The notes beneath the pieces were generated by a model. The model was not told the DNA's origin, ran no database searches, and worked only from the letters and a program-made list of their open reading frames with translations. DNA of 64,000 nucleotides from Candidatus Eiseniibacteriota bacterium (GTDB lineage Bacteria > Eisenbacteria > RBG-16-71-46 > CAIMUX01 > WJJG01): NCBI GenBank assembly GCA_023129715.1, contig JAGMBO010000005.1:62001-126000 (forward strand). Reading direction: 5' to 3'. The position numbers and the translations under genes were made by a program. Below, in pieces: positions 28,422 through 44,033 of the stretch; within the stretch, counting starts at the first letter, position 1, and every line of letters begins with the position of its first letter.

Positions 28422-29396
28422 CTAGAACTCGGCCAGGCGTTCCTCGGCCAGTTGCGCCTCGCGCGACTCGGGGTACTGCCCGATGAGGAACTCGAGGTAG
28501 CGCCGTGCAGTGCTGAGATCGCGCAGATTGCGGAAGCTGAGCGCGATCTTGTAATAGGCGGCCGGGACTTTCTCCGCCGCCGGGTACTGCTCGATGACCT
28601 TGCGGAACTCCTCGATCGCGACGGTGAATTGCCGCTGCTCGTAGTAGACCTCACCGATCCAGTACTGGGCGTTGTCGCTGAGGCGCGTCTGCGGGTGGAG
28701 CTGGAGAAAGGCGCGGAAGTTGATCAGCGCGAGCTGGTAGTTGTCCTGCATCAGATCCTGGTAGGCGACATCGTAGAGCTTCCGCCCGTCGGCGGGAGGA
28801 TCGGCCAGCCCACCGGGCGCAGCCTCCGCCTGCACGGCGCCGCGCCCATCCGGTCCATCCGCCGCCTCGTGCCATGGCATCTCGGGGTCACGCGCGGCGG
28901 TCCCCACCGCATCCTCTGCATCGTCCGGCGCCTCCCGGCGCTCCTGCCAGGAAGGCGGGGCACTGCTGTCCCACCAGCTCGAGGCCCCCGGGTCGTAAGC
29001 CTCCGCACCCGGCAGCAGAGCCACGCGCGGATCATCCGTCGGGTAGCGCGCCGACCTCCCCGCCAGCGATCCGACGGCACCGCCGCCCAGCGTGCGGGCA
29101 TCGAGGCGGCGTCCCAGCGCTGCGACACGCTCGCCGAGCGTGCGCACTTCCCGAATCAGCTCGTCGAGCTGGGCGGTCAGGTCGGCGTTCATCCGGCGCA
29201 GAAAGACTTCCTGGCGGTCGGCAGCTGTCTCGACGCGGGCGATGCGCGCCTCGAGTTCGGCTTGCTCTTGGCGGGGGGTATCCGGCGCGGCCGCCGACGC
29301 GCCGCTGCCGAAGGGCCGGGGCAGGCTGCGCATCGAGCTGCAGCCAGCCATGGTGACCAGGGCGGCGGCCAGCACCGCCACGAGGCCTCTGTTCAT
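28422..29396 (-). CDS. cpoB: CpoB/YbgF-like Tol-associated TPR lipoprotein
   Basis: A 324-residue protein. A signal peptide ends in VTMAGC (lipobox), followed by a predicted coiled coil of about residues 40-90 (ELEARIARVETAADRQEV...LDELIREVRTLGERVAAL), a long low-complexity linker, and C-terminal TPR repeats from about 200 (YDVAYQDLMQDNYQLALINFRAFLQLHP, YWIGEVYYEQRQFTVAIEEFRKVIEQYP). This is the CpoB plan, which coordinates peptidoglycan synthesis with outer-membrane constriction through TolA. Unlike E. coli CpoB it is lipidated and has a longer linker. The start at 29396 follows GGAGGAGGG. It is the last gene of the tol cluster. Confidence 0.88.
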   Translation of the reverse strand: MNRGLVAVLAAALVTMAGCSSMRSLPRPFGSGASAAAPDTPRQEQAELEARIARVETAADRQEVFLRRMNADLTAQLDELIREVRTLGERVAALGRRLDARTLGGGAVGSLAGRSARYPTDDPRVALLPGAEAYDPGASSWWDSSAPPSWQERREAPDDAEDAVGTAARDPEMPWHEAADGPDGRGAVQAEAAPGGLADPPADGRKLYDVAYQDLMQDNYQLALINFRAFLQLHPQTRLSDNAQYWIGEVYYEQRQFTVAIEEFRKVIEQYPAAEKVPAAYYKIALSFRNLRDLSTARRYLEFLIGQYPESREAQLAEERLAEF

Positions 29397-29496
29397 CGCG
29401 CCCTCCTCCCGGTGGCCGCATCCACCCTCAAGAACAAGGTCCTGCTCCCCCGGTACCCGCAGACCAGGCCCGCCATCGGCCCGACGGTTTGCGGGG

Positions 29497-30024
29497 CTAC
29501 TGACGGACGACGAAGTGCGCCCGGCGGTTTTTCGACCAGGCACTCTCCGTGCTGCCCAGCACGAAGGGACGTTCCTCCCCGTAGCTGATCGTCTCCAGGC
29601 GGCTGGCATCGATTCCATAGGCGACCAGGAAATCGCGCGACGCGCGCGCGCGGCGGTCGGCAAGGGCGAGATTGTACTCGCGCGTCCCACGCTCGTCGCA
29701 GTGCCCCTCGATCAGGAGCCGCATGCCCGGATTGGCCAGCAGCACATCGGCGTCTCGCGTCAGGGTATCGCGGGCGCGCGCCGTCAGGGCATACTTGTCG
29801 AATTCGTAGAAGACGTCCTCGATCTGCAGAGCCGCATCCTCTGCGGCCGAACCGGGCGGAGCGGTCTCATCGCCGGGCACCCGCTCGGTCTGAGGCATCT
29901 CGCTCGGCGTGACTTCCGGCGGGGGAATGATCTCCCCCGGAGGCGGCTTCTTCGAGCAGCCCACCAATCCCACCACGACGATCAGCGCCGCAATCATGCC
30001 CATGTAGAGAGTTCTCGTTCTCAT
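29497..30024 (-). CDS. pal: Peptidoglycan-associated lipoprotein Pal
   Basis: A 175-residue lipoprotein (lipobox VGLVGC, Cys 23) with a Pro-rich linker and an OmpA-like domain. The peptidoglycan-binding helix region is LIEGHCDERGTREYNLALADRRARASRDFLVAYGI, essentially canonical for Pal. It links the outer membrane to the cell wall and partners TolB. The start at 30024 follows GGGAGG. It lies 43 bases after tolB and 100 before cpoB, in normal tolB-pal-cpoB order. Confidence 0.95.
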   Translation of the reverse strand: MRTRTLYMGMIAALIVVVGLVGCSKKPPPGEIIPPPEVTPSEMPQTERVPGDETAPPGSAAEDAALQIEDVFYEFDKYALTARARDTLTRDADVLLANPGMRLLIEGHCDERGTREYNLALADRRARASRDFLVAYGIDASRLETISYGEERPFVLGSTESAWSKNRRAHFVVRQ

Positions 30025-30067
30025 TGCCTCTGCCACCTCCCTTGCTCCGTCTCCAGGGCCACCCCCC

Positions 30068-31501
30068 TTATCCGGAAGCGCGGATTCGCTCCCGGGCAGG
30101 TCGAGACCACCCCGGATTGTATGAATGGTCAGGAGAAGCTGTCAATTGCCGCAGGTTGCCCGAATCGGCATCCAGGATCCAGAGATTGCGCACGCCCGCC
30201 TGGGTCAGCGCGAAGACGACATGGCGGCCGTCGGGGGCCCAGCGGGGGTTCTCACAGCCACCGCCGACGGTCAGCCGTCGCCACCCAAAGCCCTGCACAT
30301 CGATGAGCGCCAGCTCGAAACGTCCCCCAATCTGACAGACATGCACGATGCGCGACCCGGCCGGCGACCAATCGGGGGAATCGTTCCACTCCCCGGAGAA
30401 GGTCAGCTGCTGCAGGTTCGACCCATCGGCATCGATCAGAAAGAGCTGCGGACGTCCGCACCGGTCGGAGGTGAAAACCAGCCGCTCCCCCGAGGGTGAC
30501 CAACAGGGGGCCGTATCGATGTCCGGGTGAAAGGTCAGGCGTCGCGCATGTGAACCATCGGCCCGGGCGACATAGAGCTCGGCATCCCCCTCAGCGGTTG
30601 TCGAGAAGGCAACCCGTTTGCCGTTGGGTGAATAGACGGCGGCGGCGGGTGTCGGCGCCGTCGACAAGGTCGCCAGACGCCGGCTTTCCAGATCGAGGGC
30701 CACCAGCACCGGGGCGCCCCGGTGGTAGCTGGTGAACGCAATCCGCTCTCCGGAGGGATGCCAGGCGGGAGAGACCAGAATCGTCCCGAGTCCGGTCACC
30801 GCCTGTTCCTCATACCCATCCCAATCGACGAGGAAGAGTTCCTTGCCCGACCGCGATTCCCTCAGGAAGGCGATCCGGGTGGCCGCGCACCCGGGCGTGC
30901 CAGTCAGGTAACGCGTGATCTCATCGCTCAGCCGGTGGATCGCCCAGCGATCGGGACGGGCCAGCTCGCCTTCGCGATTGATCGCCACCTCGCGATCGAG
31001 GATTCGATTCCCCGTGCCCTGGTCGATCAACTCGGCCTTCAGCCGCAAGCGCTCATCGTCCCACTCCATGCGCCCCACGACACGGGCCTGGATGGGCTGT
31101 TCGACCAACGCGCCGTCGATATCCCGCGGCGGCTCGCCGGCGGGATCGAAGGAACCTTGCCGGCGGCGAACAACCTGGAAGGCATCGCTGAACCGCAGGT
31201 CCTGGACGAGGAGATCCTCGGGCCGCTCGCCCCCCGAGAAGAAGAGCGGGTCGTTGCGCTCCCCCGGCGACGCCTCGATGGCGAAATCCTCGACGACGAT
31301 CGGCACTCGGTAGAGGGTGCGCTTGACCACCGTCCCGTGGAGGTCGATCTCGGGTGCAGCTGCATCGGCACAGAACAGCAAGGCGACGGTGAGAACCCCG
31401 GCCCAGAACAGCAAGGCCACGGTGAAGGGCCCGGCCCGCAACCCGTGCGCCCGCGCCTGCTCCGGCTCGCGGATCGAAAATCGGTGAACAATAGGCTTCA
31501 A
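30068..31501 (-). CDS. tolB: Tol-Pal translocation protein TolB
   Basis: A 477-residue periplasmic protein. A signal sequence contains a near-duplication (FTVALLFWAGVLTVALLFCADAAA). An N-terminal alpha/beta domain of about 130 residues is followed by a WD-like beta-propeller with PD40 blades (SPAWHPSGERIAFTSYHRG, AVYSPNGKRVAFSTTAEGDAELYVARADGSHARRLT, SPDWSPAGSRIVHVC). This is the TolB layout. The start is a TTG at 31501 preceded by GGAG. TolB shuttles between Pal and TolA during envelope constriction. Genes on both sides are Tol partners. Confidence 0.92.
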   Translation of the reverse strand: MKPIVHRFSIREPEQARAHGLRAGPFTVALLFWAGVLTVALLFCADAAAPEIDLHGTVVKRTLYRVPIVVEDFAIEASPGERNDPLFFSGGERPEDLLVQDLRFSDAFQVVRRRQGSFDPAGEPPRDIDGALVEQPIQARVVGRMEWDDERLRLKAELIDQGTGNRILDREVAINREGELARPDRWAIHRLSDEITRYLTGTPGCAATRIAFLRESRSGKELFLVDWDGYEEQAVTGLGTILVSPAWHPSGERIAFTSYHRGAPVLVALDLESRRLATLSTAPTPAAAVYSPNGKRVAFSTTAEGDAELYVARADGSHARRLTFHPDIDTAPCWSPSGERLVFTSDRCGRPQLFLIDADGSNLQQLTFSGEWNDSPDWSPAGSRIVHVCQIGGRFELALIDVQGFGWRRLTVGGGCENPRWAPDGRHVVFALTQAGVRNLWILDADSGNLRQLTASPDHSYNPGWSRPARERIRASG

Positions 31502-31617
31502 CTCGTTTCTCCAGAATCAACTACCGGCAATCATCATGCCGGGCAGATGCAACCACGCCTCGGTTCCCTAGGTCGCGCACCATACGCGCCGCCGATCACC
31601 AATCCTCGACCCACAGC

Positions 31618-32433
31618 TTAGGGATCGAAACGGAACCTCAAGTGAACTGTCAACCATCGCCCCCCATACGCCGGCGGAAAAGGAGGATACGGCTGTGCTC
31701 GCAGGATCGCCTCGGCCGCGCTGCGATCGAAGAACCCCGCCAGCGAGGGAACCTCGACTTCGGTCCGCAGGACCCTCCCCTGGGACGAGATCCGAAAGAC
31801 GAGCGTCGCCTCGGTTGCCGCTCCGCTGGCCGCCAACCCGGCCGGAGGCTCCCAGACCTCCGAGACCTTGCCGACGACCGTCTGCAGGTAGTAGTCGTAG
31901 GCGAACTGCGGCTCATCGATCCGCGCGAGTTCCACCGGCTGCTGGGTCTGCGGAGGTCTCGCCAATGAATCGGGCGCCGGCACAGTCTCCTCTGCTTTCG
32001 GCTCCGGATCCGGCTGCTCGGGCGGTGGTGTTTCGGGCGGCTTCGGCTTCGGTTTCTCCTCGGGCAGTTTCGCCTCGGCCGGCATCTTGGTCTCCGGCGC
32101 CGGCACCTCCTTGGGCTTGGGTTTGGGTTTGGGCTTCGGCGCCACCGGCTGATCGAGCGGTTCATCCAACGGCAGATACTCGAAGACGATCGGCCGCGGT
32201 TCCTGTCCCACCGCCCGCGAATGACAGCTCGGTGAGAGGGTGAAGACAATCAAGACGACTCCATGAACGACCGCCGAGAGCGTCAAGCTTCGACGAAACC
32301 CCCGATCGGGACGGTTGAGATCCCGCCAGAAGACGCCCCCCTCACGCCAGAGCCAACGCAGCACCCGCTCGGCCGCGACGAGCAGACGCAGGTGGCCGGG
32401 GCGATACCGATGCATGGAATCTCGGCCCCTCAT
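31618..32433 (-). CDS. tolA: TolA/TonB-like envelope-spanning protein
   Basis: A 271-residue protein with a short cytoplasmic N-terminus, one membrane helix (residues about 47-67, RSLTLSAVVHGVVLIVFTL), a Pro/Lys/Glu-rich periplasmic stalk (KPKPKPKPKEVPAPETK...) and a C-terminal TonB/TolA-type domain (ATLVFRISSQGRVLRTEVEVPSLAGFFDRSAAEAILRAQPYPPFPP). The location directly before tolB argues for TolA; the C-terminal domain by itself is of the TonB type. Its ATG overlaps the stop of the ATPase gene as ATGA. TolQ and TolR, which energise TolA, are not encoded in this window. Confidence 0.85.
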   Translation of the reverse strand: MRGRDSMHRYRPGHLRLLVAAERVLRWLWREGGVFWRDLNRPDRGFRRSLTLSAVVHGVVLIVFTLSPSCHSRAVGQEPRPIVFEYLPLDEPLDQPVAPKPKPKPKPKEVPAPETKMPAEAKLPEEKPKPKPPETPPPEQPDPEPKAEETVPAPDSLARPPQTQQPVELARIDEPQFAYDYYLQTVVGKVSEVWEPPAGLAASGAATEATLVFRISSQGRVLRTEVEVPSLAGFFDRSAAEAILRAQPYPPFPPAYGGRWLTVHLRFRFDP

Positions 32434-34142
32434 CGATCGACTCCGAGTGATCGCAGGCGATTGATCATCGCCAGCACCTCGATCGTGCGCACGGCCGCCA
32501 AATCGCCGCGAGGAAAGCGACTGAAACGATCGAGCCCACCATCCCCGAGCCCGCCGAGCAGTTCTTCGAGCTCTTCCGGCGTGAAGGCTGCGCCCAGGCG
32601 GTTCCAGGGCGCGGCGGCGCGATCGCCTTCGAGCAGGCGCCCGAGGATTTCCGCCAACGCGCGCGTCTGGGAGGGACTGACCAGCTGCTCACAGGCCCCC
32701 AGATCGACCTCTTCCCGCTCGACCAGCAGACGATGGGTCCCGGGAGCCTTGATCCTGGGCCCCTTCGGCCCCACCTGGCGCCGGTAGGCGTCCAAACGCA
32801 GACGGCGCAGGCACCCGGCCGGCGGGAAGGCCTCCGACGACCCCCCCCCCGGAGGGGCGATCTCGCGTGCCTCCGCGGTCACATCCCGCGGGAGATAGCG
32901 GTCCATCTGGATGACCCGGTCGGCCACCCGGAAGTACTCCCCGCTGCCGCCGACCACCAGGATGGTCGAGACGCCCCGGTCGCGAAAGAGATTTCGCACA
33001 CGATCGAGAAAGGGAGTGATCGGTTCCTGCCCCGGGCGCAGCAAGCGTCGCATCGGCGCGTCGCGGATCATGAAATTGGTCGCCGAAGTGTCCTCGTCGA
33101 GGAGCAGGAGACGGGCGCCCGCCTCGAGTGCCTCGACGATATTGGCAGCCTGGGAGGTACTGCCGCTGGCATTGGTCGTGCTGAAGTCGCGTGTCGAGCG
33201 GCCGTAGGGCAGATCGCCGATGAAGGGGCTGATGTCGGTGCGGGTGACCGCCCGCCCATCCTCGGCGCGCACCTTGACCGCCCGGGGATCGGTCGCGACC
33301 TGCTCGCGTCCATCACCGGGAATGTGAGGGTAGATCCCGCGCGAGATCGCCTCGAGCAGGGTCGACTTGCCGTGGAAGCCCCCACCGACGAGCAGGGTGA
33401 CGCCCCGTGGGATCGCCATGCCGCGGATGCGTCCTGCATGGGGAAGATCCACTTCAGCGGTCAGTGTCGGGGGTGGTTCGAATGCAATCACGGGCGCCCT
33501 CCCCGGCGATTCGAGAGGATGGTCGTCGTGCCCCGCCCGGCGCGGAAGGACCGCGCCCGCCGCGACGAAGGCGACCCATTCGCGTTCTTCGAGCAACGCG
33601 ACAAGCGCCGTGTGATCTTCGATAACATCTTGATGTCGCCGCAGGGCGCGCTCATCAACGGCCCGGCGTTCGAGACTGCGGGCAAGAACCGCCGGGAGAA
33701 CCTGCAGCAGGATCTTGGCAGCTTGGCGACCGAGGATCCGGCGTCCCGCGGCGGGAAGCTGCACGCTGAGGCGCGCCTCCAAGTGGTCGCCGTGCAAGCC
33801 CACCAGGGTTCGCGGCAAGATCTCCTGGCCCAGACGGTCGATGCCGATCTCGCGGGTTCCCGCGCCGCGGATCGCCGCACTCAGCATGCGGGCGAGGAAA
33901 TCCTCCAGTCCGCGGCGACGCGGCAGAGCCTCACGGACAGCCTCACCGAAGCCGGAGGTCTCGTGGCCGAGGCGAACGTGGATGCGCGAGGGCGGCGCAT
34001 AGGGATCCCCTTGAACGTGGGCCACTTCGAGTTCAAACGCGCCGAGGCGATAGTGTCCCCGGAGATCTTGGTAGGCCTTGTAACCCCGCCCATCGATCCG
34101 TTGCAGTGTCCGCTCGAGGCTCTCGGCCGTCGACACGTTCAT
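32430..34142 (-). CDS. ABC-ATPase domain protein (COG3044-like)
   Basis: A 570-residue soluble P-loop protein. Walker A is LLVGGGFHGKSTLLEAISRG (Lys near 259), followed by PYGRSTRDFSTTNASGSTSQAANIVEALE and Walker B LLLLDEDTSATNFMIRDAPM. This set, including ASGSTSQAANI as a signature-like segment, defines the predicted ABC-class ATPases of COG3044/PF09818. Their function is not established. The start overlaps the stop of the upstream nuclease gene (ATGA) and its stop overlaps tolA (ATGA), so all three are translationally coupled. It may act with the nuclease in DNA or RNA processing; this is inferred from the pairing only. Confidence 0.85.
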   Translation of the reverse strand: MNVSTAESLERTLQRIDGRGYKAYQDLRGHYRLGAFELEVAHVQGDPYAPPSRIHVRLGHETSGFGEAVREALPRRRGLEDFLARMLSAAIRGAGTREIGIDRLGQEILPRTLVGLHGDHLEARLSVQLPAAGRRILGRQAAKILLQVLPAVLARSLERRAVDERALRRHQDVIEDHTALVALLEEREWVAFVAAGAVLPRRAGHDDHPLESPGRAPVIAFEPPPTLTAEVDLPHAGRIRGMAIPRGVTLLVGGGFHGKSTLLEAISRGIYPHIPGDGREQVATDPRAVKVRAEDGRAVTRTDISPFIGDLPYGRSTRDFSTTNASGSTSQAANIVEALEAGARLLLLDEDTSATNFMIRDAPMRRLLRPGQEPITPFLDRVRNLFRDRGVSTILVVGGSGEYFRVADRVIQMDRYLPRDVTAEAREIAPPGGGSSEAFPPAGCLRRLRLDAYRRQVGPKGPRIKAPGTHRLLVEREEVDLGACEQLVSPSQTRALAEILGRLLEGDRAAAPWNRLGAAFTPEELEELLGGLGDGGLDRFSRFPRGDLAAVRTIEVLAMINRLRSLGVDR

Positions 34143-35086
34143 CGACTCATCTCCTGGTACTCGGGACACACTTCGCGAAACGGGCAGGGATGGCAACGGC
34201 GCGGCTCGGGGATGGCGGGAAAGTCGGCGACCTGGGCGCGATTCTCCTCTGAATCGACCAATCGCTCGCGCATTGCGGCAATGCTGGCGGCGATCTCCTC
34301 GCGTGCCGCGACGAGATCCGCCGCGCAGGTCCCCGCCTGCGCCTCGTCGCCGAGATTGAGATTCACCTCCCGCAGTTCGATCTGCGCGGGCGTCACCCCC
34401 CATTGCTCGGCGGCATAAAGCGCATAGACGGCCAGCTGCCGCCCGCCCGGTTGCGGCGGGCGGCGTCCCGTCTTCCAGTCGACGATGCGCACGGTCCCAC
34501 CCCCGACCCGCCAAGCGACGTCCATCTTCACATACACCGGCACGCCGGCGAGCGGAAACGTCTGTAAGTCCTCCAGGGCCAGCCAGTCCCCGGGCTCCAC
34601 GCGGGCCAACCTCTCGCGGTGGCCGCCGGCGTAGAAGTGACGGACCGATCGGCGTACCGTCTCGGCAAGCCCCTGCCAGGCCGCATCCCCGACCGATTCA
34701 GCGTAGTGATGCTCGATCAGGCCGAGGACCCGCCGGGGATCCTCGCGATAGGCACCGCTGCGGGAGAGCCGGAATTCCCGGCGCATCCGGGCGACGGTGT
34801 GCTCGCCGGCTTCCTCACCGGAAACCGGCGGGAGCGGCGCGGTCTCGCCCGCCGCCCGCACCTGCGTGAGGGCGGCAGCGACGACCTCGTGGACGATCCC
34901 TCCGGCCCAGAGGTAGCGGCTCTTGAGATTCTTCAGCAGGTAGAGGCGTCGTCGTTCGGGCGGGGCGCCCGTCGACCAGCCCCCCCACGAACCGTAGTAA
35001 TGGTAGTAGTAGCGCCGCAGACAGCTCCGAAACGTCTCGTGCCGACTGTGGCTCCAACTCAGACGATTGCGCAGTTCCGCGCCCAT
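34139..35086 (-). CDS. PD-(D/E)XK nuclease with probable Fe-S cluster
   Basis: A 315-residue RecB/Cas4-type nuclease domain. The N-terminal SWSHSRHETFRSCLRRYYYHYYGSW and the C-terminal CHPCPFREVCPEY supply four Cys in the pattern of Fe-S containing AddB/Cas4-like nucleases (one early, three late). The catalytic core is VKMDVAWRVGGGTVRIVDWKTGRR followed by QLAVYALYA, giving Asp, Asp-Trp-Lys and Gln. The likely role is single-stranded DNA cleavage in repair or defence. There is no helicase nearby. It is coupled to the ABC-ATPase gene by an ATGA overlap. A copy of the structured repeat lies just upstream of its start. Confidence 0.87.
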   Translation of the reverse strand: MGAELRNRLSWSHSRHETFRSCLRRYYYHYYGSWGGWSTGAPPERRRLYLLKNLKSRYLWAGGIVHEVVAAALTQVRAAGETAPLPPVSGEEAGEHTVARMRREFRLSRSGAYREDPRRVLGLIEHHYAESVGDAAWQGLAETVRRSVRHFYAGGHRERLARVEPGDWLALEDLQTFPLAGVPVYVKMDVAWRVGGGTVRIVDWKTGRRPPQPGGRQLAVYALYAAEQWGVTPAQIELREVNLNLGDEAQAGTCAADLVAAREEIAASIAAMRERLVDSEENRAQVADFPAIPEPRRCHPCPFREVCPEYQEMSR

Positions 35087-35140: not shown

Positions 35141-35180
35141 TAATCACCTCCCGCGATTCGGCACAGCCCAATGGGGCGAG
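35141..35180 (-). repeat. Structured intergenic repeat, copy 1
   Basis: Core (plus strand) CGGCACAGCCCAATGGGG, identical to copy 2. Read on the minus strand it begins 34 bases after the stop of the selenoprotein gene. GCCC/GGGC form an inner stem, GCAC/GUGC a middle stem, and GGUUC/GAAUC an outer stem. An extra small hairpin (TTGGA/TCCAA) is inserted between the middle and inner stems, extending the folded region to about 35215. Confidence 0.8.
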
Positions 35181-35214: not shown

Positions 35215-36177
35215 CTAGGAATGTATCTCGCTTAGAAACCGCCGCAGAATCTCAGGGGCAACCTCAGTCTTCGGTTTCGTATGGATCTCATTGGGAATCA
35301 GACAGCCCTGGCGGTCGAAGAAATAGAACGCCGCCGACGGGGAGGCCGCATAGCTCTCCTGGAAGGTGCGATTGAGGTCGTCCTGCAAGAGGGCCAGCTT
35401 CCGCTCGCCGACCATCTTCTTCAGCTTGCCGTAGCGATCGGACTTCAAGATCGGGAAGATCCGCACATCGCCAAACGCCTCACTTTCGGCAAACTCGGCG
35501 GCGAGCTCATCCAGAACGGCAAACTGCCGCTCGTAGCTGCATCACCCGGCGGGGGTCGCGTACCAGAGCATCACGCGATGTCCGCGCAGATCCTTGAAGC
35601 TGATCGTCTGGCCGTAGCTCGGCGAGGAGGGATTGACGTCGGAGAGTTCGAAATCGGGCGCGGGACACGGCTGGCGGATCTCGATCTCGGGACCGACGAA
35701 CGAGTCGGCCAGCCCGCCGGCATCGTAGACGAGCAGGCGCGGCCTGAACGTCCCCGCCTCTTCATAGACGTGTCGCAGGCGGATCGCTCGAAAAGGCCCC
35801 ATGTCCCACGTGCCGTCGCCGTCGAAATCCCAGTGCTTGATCAGGTCGCGCTGATGGGTCGAGTCGTCCCGGCAGGGATTGGCATTGAAGCGCAACGTGG
35901 TCAACCCGATGAAGCCCCTCAGGGGAAAGACCTCGAAGCGCGCCCGGGGCGGATGATTGCCGACCGGGGACACCGCCTCGGCGATTCCCGCCGGCGGCGC
36001 CTCGGCGACTTCCGCGGCCGGCGGCTCAGCGACAACCGCCGAGGCGGCGGAAGCCTTCCCGGCGTCATCCATCTGCCGGTCCTCGCCCCCGCAGCTCGCC
36101 ACGAGCAGTGCCAGGATCGTCACTCCCAACCCCGCAATCCGGGTGACTTCGCGCTTGTCGATGATCTTCACGAACAT
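35215..36177 (-). CDS. Selenocysteine-containing PKD-thioredoxin-like lipoprotein
   Basis: Read through one in-frame TGA (35542-35544), this is a 320-residue protein. The lipobox is LVASC (Cys 29), then an Ala/Pro/Glu linker, a PKD-type Ig domain (about 75-165, with HWDFDGDGTWD), and a thioredoxin/peroxiredoxin-like domain (about 172-320) starting FELSDVNPSSPSYGQTISFKDLRG. The TGA is codon 212, in TPAG-U-CSYERQFAVLDEL, exactly at the expected redox loop. After it the same frame continues with normal domain sequence (SAAFYFFDRQGCLIP). From base 18 after the TGA, a GUU loop is closed by an eight-base-pair stem, which fits bacterial SECIS rules. The start at 36177 follows GGGAGAGGAG. The likely role is a periplasmic thiol redox enzyme or peroxidase. 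The alternative is a pseudogene with one nonsense mutation. Confidence 0.83.
35514..35532 (-). promoter_or_regulatory. Candidate bacterial SECIS element
   Basis: On the minus strand, GAGCGGCA and TGCCGTTC pair over eight bases (one G-U) around a GUU triloop. The loop starts 18 bases after the in-frame TGA and has G in its first position, as the bacterial SECIS model requires (loop 3-14 bases, spacing about 16-37 bases). Confidence 0.78.
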
Positions 36178-36282: not shown

Positions 36283-36321
36283 AATCACCTCGCGCGCTTC
36301 GGCACAGCCCAATGGGGCGAG
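36283..36321 (-). repeat. Structured intergenic repeat, copy 2
   Basis: Contains the same CGGCACAGCCCAATGGGG core as copy 1 and a shared AATCACCTC flank. On the minus strand it starts 16 bases after the metG stop. GCUUC/GAAGC, GCAC/GUGC and GCCC/GGGC can form a nested hairpin. It ends with GAGGTGATT, 106 bases upstream of the selenoprotein start. Confidence 0.8.
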
Positions 36322-36337: not shown

Positions 36338-38035
36338 CTAGTCGGTACTAGCCTCCGGAACGTCCCCGGGTTCCAGCTTGGGGAACAGAATCTTCGGTTT
36401 CTCGAAACGCCGCCCCGCGGGCAGCCCTTCCTCACCGATCCGGGCCCAGCTCCCCGGGCTCTGCGGCCCCTCGATCCCCAGCATCGCCGCCAGCCGACCG
36501 GCGCCCCCGGGAAGGAAGGGGGCCATCAGGCGCGCCAACCCTGCCGCGAGCTGCAGGCAAACGTGGATCGTCGTCGCGCACTGCGCGGGATCCTGCTTGC
36601 GGGTGACCCACGGTTTGCGATCGTCGAAATAGCGATTCCCCACGCGGGCAAGATCGATCATCGCCGCCTGGGCATGACGGAACTGGAACCGGTCGAGCAG
36701 GCCGCCGACCTTCTCGCGCGTCTCGGCGATCGCCGCCAGGGTCGCGCGGTCGGCCTCGCCGAGCGTACCGGCGGGCGGGACTTCACCCGCGAGGTTCTTC
36801 GCTCCGAAGCTGAGCGTGCGGTGGATGAAATTGCCCAGCACATCGGCCAGTTCCCCATTGGTCCGATGAAAGAAGTCGAGCCAGGAAAATTCCGAGTCGG
36901 CGGTCTCGGGCGCGATTGCCGTCAGGTAGTAGCGCAGGCGATCGGGGCCGAAGGTCTCGACGAGTTCTCGGACCTCGATCACCGCCCCGCGGCTCTTCGA
37001 GAACTTCTCCGCCGCCGCGCGGCCGGCGCGCATGAAGTTGAGGTACTCGTTGGCCACGACTACATCGGGTCGAATGTAGGTCTCCTGCCCCAGCAGCATC
37101 GCGGGAAAGATGATCGCATGGAAGGGGATGTTGTCCTTGCCGATGAAGTGGATCAGACGGGTGCCGGCATCCTGCCACAAGGTGCTCCAGTACTCGGGAC
37201 GGCCGCTGCGCTCGGCCCACACCTTGGTGTTGGTCACATAACCAATCGGAGCGTCGAACCAAACATAGATCCGCTTGCCCTCCGCATCGGGGTCGTCGAG
37301 GGGAATGCGCACGCCCCATTCGGTGTCGCGGGTCACGCAGCGGGACCGCAGACCCTCCCGCAGCCAGCTCATCGCCCCACCGCGAGTGTTCGGCCGCCAG
37401 TCGGTCTTCCCCTCGAGCCAGTCGCCAAGCGTCTCCTGGAAACGGTCGAGGCGCAGGAACCAGTGCAGCGTGTCCTTGAGCACCGGGGTCGTGCCGTCAC
37501 CCGGGACGGCGGAGCGCGGCTCGCGCAGCTCGGTCACCTCGTAGGTCGTGCCGCAATGATCGCATTGGTCGCCGCGGGCGTCGCCGCCGCACTTGGGACA
37601 GACACCCTCGACATAGCGGTCGGGCAGGAACATCCCGACCTTCTCGGAATAGTACTGCTGGATGCGCTGCTTCTCGATGTAGCCGCCGTCCAGCAGCTTG
37701 AGGAAGAACGCCTGGGTCAGCTCGTGGTGCTCGGGCCACGAAGTGCGGCCGTAGATGTCGAAGTCGATCTCCGCGGCCGCAAAGGCGGCTTCGTTCGCCG
37801 TATGGAAACGATCGATGATTTCCTGCGGCCCGACACCTTCCTCCATCGCCCGCAACGTGATCGGCACGCCGTGCTCGTCGGAACCGCAGATGAAGACGAC
37901 CTCCTCCCCCTTCATGCGCAAGTAACGCACGTAGATGTCGGGGGGCAGGTAGGCCCCGGCAAGGTGGCCGACATGGATGCGGCCATTTGCATACGGCAGC
38001 GCGCTCGTCACCAGTGTTCGCTCGAAGGTGCCCAC
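36338..38035 (-). CDS. metG: Methionyl-tRNA synthetase
   Basis: A 565-residue class I synthetase charging tRNA-Met. The HIGH motif is HVGH in LPYANGRIHVGHLAGAYLPPDIYVRY, the KMSKS motif is KFSKS, and the four-Cys zinc knuckle is CPKCGGDARGDQCDHCG. It also has VWFDAPIGYVTNTKVW and an anticodon-binding domain (FNRYFDDRKPW-like NRYFDDRKPW). It lacks the C-terminal dimerisation/tRNA-binding EMAP domain, so it is a short form. It is preceded by era in the same direction with a 91-base gap, and a structured repeat follows its stop. Confidence 0.97.
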   Translation of the reverse strand: MGTFERTLVTSALPYANGRIHVGHLAGAYLPPDIYVRYLRMKGEEVVFICGSDEHGVPITLRAMEEGVGPQEIIDRFHTANEAAFAAAEIDFDIYGRTSWPEHHELTQAFFLKLLDGGYIEKQRIQQYYSEKVGMFLPDRYVEGVCPKCGGDARGDQCDHCGTTYEVTELREPRSAVPGDGTTPVLKDTLHWFLRLDRFQETLGDWLEGKTDWRPNTRGGAMSWLREGLRSRCVTRDTEWGVRIPLDDPDAEGKRIYVWFDAPIGYVTNTKVWAERSGRPEYWSTLWQDAGTRLIHFIGKDNIPFHAIIFPAMLLGQETYIRPDVVVANEYLNFMRAGRAAAEKFSKSRGAVIEVRELVETFGPDRLRYYLTAIAPETADSEFSWLDFFHRTNGELADVLGNFIHRTLSFGAKNLAGEVPPAGTLGEADRATLAAIAETREKVGGLLDRFQFRHAQAAMIDLARVGNRYFDDRKPWVTRKQDPAQCATTIHVCLQLAAGLARLMAPFLPGGAGRLAAMLGIEGPQSPGSWARIGEEGLPAGRRFEKPKILFPKLEPGDVPEASTD

Positions 38036-43646: not shown

Positions 43647-44033
43647 TCGTTTCAAATGTACTACCCCGCTGGCGAATGCCTCTGTTCCATCTTCCCCGCA
43701 GGTATCGGCGGCCCTGATCGTGCGGGCTTCCGCGGCCGGACTCGCCGGGAGGCTGCTTCCGGCCCTCACTTGGCATTTCGGCAGCCGGGAGGAGTGCCTT
43801 GACCCTCCACCCGGCGTTCCGGATGGGGGGCCGAAAGCCGCCAGGCCCACGGGGGGGCTCCGGCGCGGGGGCAGATGCCATGCGGTTCACGCTCGCAGGT
43901 CCTTTGCGGTCAGAGACCTACGCGCAGCGACCACCGGCGCCCAGAGGGTTCCCAGCGCCGGAATCGGCCGCATCTGCTTCGTCGTGGCAATGATTCGGCA
44001 CGGCCCAACGGGGCGAGACTTGTGCGCAGCCAT
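43647..44033. other. Intergenic region with repeat copy 4
   Basis: About 390 bases with no convincing gene. It contains the fourth structured repeat at 43991-44015. GC-rich frames through 43740-43900 are open on both strands but lack ribosome sites and family resemblance. No promoter was recognised for the receiver-like gene. Confidence 0.5.
43991..44015 (-). repeat. Structured intergenic repeat, copy 4
   Basis: Plus strand ATTCGGCACGGCCCAACGGG followed by GCGAG. On the minus strand it starts 18 bases after the radical SAM stop. The GCAC/GUGC middle stem and the GCCC/GGGC inner stem are kept, while the loop differs by one base from copies 1 and 2. Confidence 0.75.

Follow-up and report, generated by a model that had tools for sequence, protein, structure and literature searches.

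Does the single TGA that interrupts a 320-codon frame in this 64,000-nucleotide stretch of DNA (the window) end a gene, spoil it or specify selenocysteine (Sec), and, in the last case, what kind of protein would carry the residue? A sequence-only reading had placed the TGA at codon 212 and proposed a new selenoprotein, giving no strand; the interrupted frame was recovered exactly as described and lies on the minus strand (Table 1), while the plus-strand reading of 35215-36177 was set aside, as it translates to an unrelated frame. The gene opens with an ATG (36177-36175) that follows a Shine-Dalgarno-like stretch, GGAGAGGAG, and closes with a TAG (35217-35215). Matches to sigma-70 promoters or terminators were sought near the gene and none were found; likewise, an Rfam search returned no match near it, the sole match in the window being a tRNA-Val. 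The parts of the frame before and after the TGA form one thioredoxin/AhpC-TSA-like domain, a claim of the earlier reading that is borne out by the domain match, the structural model and structural matches. Taken as a whole, the locus is best explained, in our judgement with good confidence, as a gene for a Sec-containing envelope lipoprotein that would act as a thiol/selenol oxidoreductase.

Table 1. Features of the predicted selenoprotein locus, in window coordinates.
Feature	Position	Strand	Description	Conservation or support
Predicted selenoprotein CDS	35215..36177	minus	320 codons + TAG; lipobox, linker, PKD-like domain, thioredoxin-fold domain	3 orthologues with equal architecture and TGA
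In-frame TGA	35542..35544	minus	codon 212, predicted Sec	TGA in 4/4 orthologues
Cys213	35539..35541	minus	TGC, directly after predicted Sec	orthologues TGC/TGT/TGT; amino acid conserved
Predicted SECIS apical hairpin	35514..35533	minus	bacterial type; 7-8 bp stem, loop AGUUU/GUU, G at loop position 1 or 2	
Lipobox Cys29	36091..36093	minus	LLVASC; predicted lipid attachment site	Cys invariant in alignment of 4 orthologues
PKD-like domain	35701..35847	minus	WDFDGDGTWD	Pfam PKD_4 E 8.7e-4, under gathering score; kept in orthologues
Thioredoxin/AhpC-TSA-like domain	35224..35664	minus	carries U212-C213	pLDDT 89, pTM 0.85; best structural matches ResA/TlpA type
Cys171	35665..35667	minus	CPxPDF motif	invariant in U-C orthologues only
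Cys292	35302..35304	minus	GC(L/V) motif	invariant in U-C orthologues only
metG	36338..38035	minus	orthology anchor	directly upstream in 4/4 genomes, 71-75% identity

Searching 59 related genomes brought up orthologues in three further genera belonging to this bacterium's family, with about 42% identity and one internal TGA each (public counterparts: Candidatus Eisenbacteria MAG contigs WJJG01000196.1, JAGMDA010000126.1 and VGIY01000214.1). All four orthologous genes sit directly downstream of metG, and in each the TGA occupies the same codon and is followed by a Cys codon (TGC, TGC, TGT and TGT), so that the adjacent U-C pair noticed earlier is kept throughout; from the predicted Sec onwards, the four proteins read UCSY, UCSM, UCSM and UCDQ. 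The part after the TGA is conserved across genera by itself (BLASTP E 1e-23 and 2e-20). Codon-position differences among the orthologues are near saturation and hence little informative. A sequencing error or a decaying pseudogene, in which the TGA would have arisen by mutation of a Cys, Trp or Gly codon and the product would be non-functional, could yield a single in-frame TGA by one point mutation, and the orthologues do stem from metagenome-assembled contigs; nevertheless, the identical TGA in four separately assembled genera at such divergence, the conserved downstream frame (E 1e-23) and the covariation of the hairpin described below leave this account a negligible chance. Neither error nor decay would be expected to produce the conserved TGA and Cys, the metG adjacency and the conserved downstream protein, and the inactivating mutations in close relatives that the sequence-only reading had counted as evidence against its proposal were not encountered, the orthologues in the three other genera being intact. 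The distribution is narrow: the U-C form occurs in four of the five genera of one family (no copy was found in the fifth, represented by a genome that is 69% complete), in none of the other 42 genomes examined from its class and phylum, and in no other lineage when about 85,000 species genomes were scanned by motif, a scan that diverged members would escape.

Exactly 17 bases separate the TGA from a GUU loop (35524-35522) that is closed by an 8-bp stem, as had been noted from the sequence. Folding of the lone stem is mildly better than that of shuffled sequences (z -1.5); given the weakness of this single-hairpin score, covariation was relied on instead, using 14 TGA-bearing sequences, distant UxxC redoxins included, that share equal spacing and align without gaps. 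Across this set, a seven-pair stem (positions 13-19/25-31 from the TGA) is paired in 87.8% of cells, and double-sided compensating changes occur at all seven pairs. The covariation score of 0.934 compares with 0.186 +/- 0.050 for shuffled sets, none of 500 of which reached it, and with at most 0.192 when the stem partners were slid, so that the pairing exceeds chance. The outermost pair, formed in 5 of 14 sequences, is weak; each of the remaining six forms in 13 or 14 of the 14. The loop, AGUU(U/C), falls within the codons that specify a conserved Gln-Phe. At this site, Sec forms make four to seven of the seven pairs, and three Cys homologues make 1, 3 and 1. On these comparative grounds, the hairpin downstream of the TGA is identified as a SECIS element. 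A perfect 7-bp SECIS-like stem at equal distance was also observed in a TlpA-type protein with a UGAC motif (L072, G018:C128).

The machinery that Sec insertion requires, for which the earlier reading had recommended a genome-wide search, is complete: selB scores over its cut-off, tRNA-Sec is found at 68.8 bits with anticodon TCA, selA is found at 537.9 bits, and there are two selD genes (L055, G000:C109; L056, G000:C138). A selA-selB operon was sought near selB and not found, selA sitting on another contig; selA is present in all 26 good-quality genomes of the class. As side observations, one selD is joined to a preceding cysteine-desulfurase-like domain, whereas the second carries an in-frame TGA too and encodes a Sec form of SelD (GAGUASK). 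Some neighbouring genes end in TGA as an ordinary stop, so the codon has not been reassigned. The conserved TGA, the covarying hairpin, the Sec machinery and the ordinary use of TGA as a stop together make Sec insertion at UGA-212 very likely, in agreement with the proposal that this analysis followed up. The hairpin 17 bases further on would recruit SelB with tRNA-Sec, which would then decode UGA-212 as Sec. Could the TGA instead be a real stop, such that a short PKD lipoprotein is made and the remainder is produced separately or through non-Sec readthrough? The genome does end other genes with TGA, and a GTG-started frame of 83 aa lies downstream, yet that frame is without half of the thioredoxin fold and without the active site, and the TGA falls on the nucleophilic Cys/Sec of relatives with a covarying SECIS at a fixed distance after it; we consider termination here highly improbable.

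Assignment of the fold was approached through profiles and structure prediction. The best Pfam match of the protein is AhpC-TSA (PF00578; 21 bits against a gathering score of 26), and PKD_4 is likewise matched under its gathering score (19.7 against 27 bits). As full-length prediction with four sequences as input gave a poor N-terminal half, the thioredoxin-fold domain was predicted alone, and the resulting model (Table 1) places the U/C pair at the N-terminus of helix 1. By both structure and profile, the best solved relatives are thiol-disulfide oxidoreductases of the ResA/TlpA type, and peroxiredoxins match too. Residue 212 aligns with the U of UxxC relatives, including the TUGYCR proteins, and with the first Cys of CxxC homologues (CAGC, CEGC and, by inspection, CPVC), which answers the earlier question of what homologues carry at this position; in the A4 profile, it likewise lines up with the leading Cys in the CxxC of ResA. 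When the four-sequence U-C profile is used alone, however, the aligner puts the CC pair near the second Cys of the PDB relatives, and the alignment register was consequently taken from the UxxC relatives. In the U-C proteins, the +3 residue is Tyr, Met, Met or Gln and never Cys, and a Cys stands at +1. In this register, the predicted Sec holds the ancestral nucleophile position, the +3 Cys having been lost and a +1 Cys being present. The peroxidatic motif PxxxT/SxxC is absent from the U-C orthologues, in which the residue at -3 from the Sec is an invariant Pro, and the cis-Pro of thioredoxins lacks a conserved counterpart among them. Phylogenetic analysis supports the U-C clade (98/97) without resolving how it branches with respect to the clades of UxFC, Cys and TUGYCR proteins.

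With regard to known families, the sequence-only reading had not recognised a U-C motif in a PKD-fused lipoprotein as an existing selenoprotein arrangement, and this holds for the motif and not for the domain. The nearest NCBIfam entry is NF053656, redoxin_TUGYCR (TUGYCR motif thioredoxin fold (seleno)protein), matched with E 8.5e-18 and 64.6 bits against a curated cut-off of 100; the three orthologues, at 50.8, 60.4 and 51.0 bits, also fall under that cut-off, and the 11 matches over it in 385 genomes each contain one in-frame TGA. Both groups share a homologous thioredoxin-fold domain, a Sec at the same aligned position, an equally spaced SECIS whose loop codes for Q-F, and extracytoplasmic lead sequences. 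They differ in that the motif is P-x-x-U-C-x-x-x-R-Q-F in the U-C proteins and T-U-G-Y-C-R-x-Q-F in NF053656, and in that the U-C proteins lose the +3 Cys, gain a +1 Cys and add the PKD-like domain together with Cys171 and Cys292. Judged by this profile relationship, the domain has a precedent, being a divergent, lineage-restricted relative of NF053656 rather than a wholly new kind of selenoprotein. As far as Table 1 of a 2026 review of prokaryotic selenoproteins extends, the motifs of thioredoxin/Prx-type selenoproteins are UxxC, UxxU, UxxS, TxxU and UGC, and adjacent UC is absent among the entries with these folds, UC/CU-type adjacency being listed there for other protein classes, e.g., GxUC in CopZ-type 2Fe-2S proteins (PMC13188914). 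Compared with the Sec redoxin, Prx-like and TlpA-like families of that table (UxxC, UGC), the U-C protein shares the thioredoxin fold and a predicted redox Sec and is set apart by its adjacent UC, adding a selenoprotein subfamily with a pairing that the table does not list for thioredoxin-fold selenoproteins (PMC13188914). The literature was also searched for a UC motif, for TUGYCR and for selenoproteins of Eisenbacteria, and no relevant work came up. With ResA/TlpA proteins (PDB 4nmu, 2h1b and 1st9), it has in common the fold (TM about 0.6-0.8), the N-terminal nucleophile position and a membrane-anchored envelope location, the last of these being a prediction here; it departs from them in having Sec for the first Cys, no +3 Cys and no conserved cis-Pro equivalent.

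How such a protein might work can be outlined from the alignment and the model. The lipid anchor suggests an envelope location, where the anchor and the PKD-like domain would hold the protein at the membrane or cell surface. By alignment and model, Sec occupies the N-terminal end of helix 1 in a thioredoxin fold like that of ResA, TlpA and redoxins, the site of the attacking Cys in CxxC/UxxC relatives, and its selenol may attack a disulfide or peroxide outside the cytoplasm. The selenenyl intermediate might then be resolved by Cys213, as a vicinal selenenylsulfide, or by Cys171 or Cys292, after which an envelope thiol donor would reduce the resolved form; the activity, the substrate and the choice of resolving Cys are all putative. 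In mammalian thioredoxin reductase, which ends in Gly-Cys-Sec-Gly, adjacent Cys and Sec can form a vicinal selenenylsulfide. Pairing with Cys213 would be comparable, with the order reversed, although that enzyme is an unrelated protein whose Cys-Sec pair lies in a flexible C-terminal tail outside any thioredoxin-fold active site.

Alternatively, Sec could be inserted into a peroxiredoxin-like peroxidase resolved by Cys171 or Cys292 rather than into a disulfide oxidoreductase that uses the vicinal U-C pair. AhpC-TSA is the best Pfam match, albeit under its cut-off, peroxiredoxins appear among the structural matches, the thioredoxin cis-Pro has no conserved equivalent, and both additional Cys residues are invariant; set against these points, PxxxT/SxxC is missing, an invariant Pro stands at -3 from the Sec, and ResA/TlpA-type oxidoreductases head the structural and profile matches. 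We regard a peroxidase as rather unlikely and, since the protein has no peroxiredoxin motif and matches ResA/TlpA proteins best, prefer a disulfide oxidoreductase. In the most specific form of the latter, the resolving Cys would have shifted position, from +3 to +1, and catalysis would proceed via a vicinal Sec-Cys selenenylsulfide within the active site, possibly relayed by the two extra invariant Cys residues, on a surface-anchored PKD lipoprotein confined to one uncultured lineage; this form is offered tentatively and given somewhat less than an even chance.

Standard annotation would cut this selenoprotein subfamily short at the TGA. The active-site Cys shifts place around a fixed Sec, and the SECIS, with its loop coding Gln-Phe, stays in register; the family thus offers a testable case of how coding and SECIS constraints jointly fix where the redox partner can go.

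Several further observations concern related proteins and the surroundings of the gene. U-[SD]-F-C redoxins (L067, G008; L070, G005) score about 76 bits, under the NF053656 cut-off, and are another diverged Sec group alongside the TUGYCR and U-C forms. A UPSC redoxin (L071/L092, G007:C65) is fused behind an apparent Ig-like surface domain, named by eye, and would, if that call holds, be the second case in which this redoxin is joined to an extracellular domain. Downstream of the U-C gene, the minus strand carries, in order (28422-35086), a PD-(D/E)XK nuclease, an ABC-class ATPase (PF09818), TonB, TolB-like, Pal and YbgF-like genes, and TonB/TolB follow the orthologue in one other genome (G002) too. 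Finally, a dispersed REP-like intergenic repeat with the core CGGCACRGCCCAAYGGGGCGAG occurs on the plus strand at window positions 35159-35180, 36300-36321 and 43996-44017, with 24 copies in the genome at <=2 mismatches and none of a reversed control pattern; two of its copies, oriented alike, lie on either side of the selenoprotein gene.
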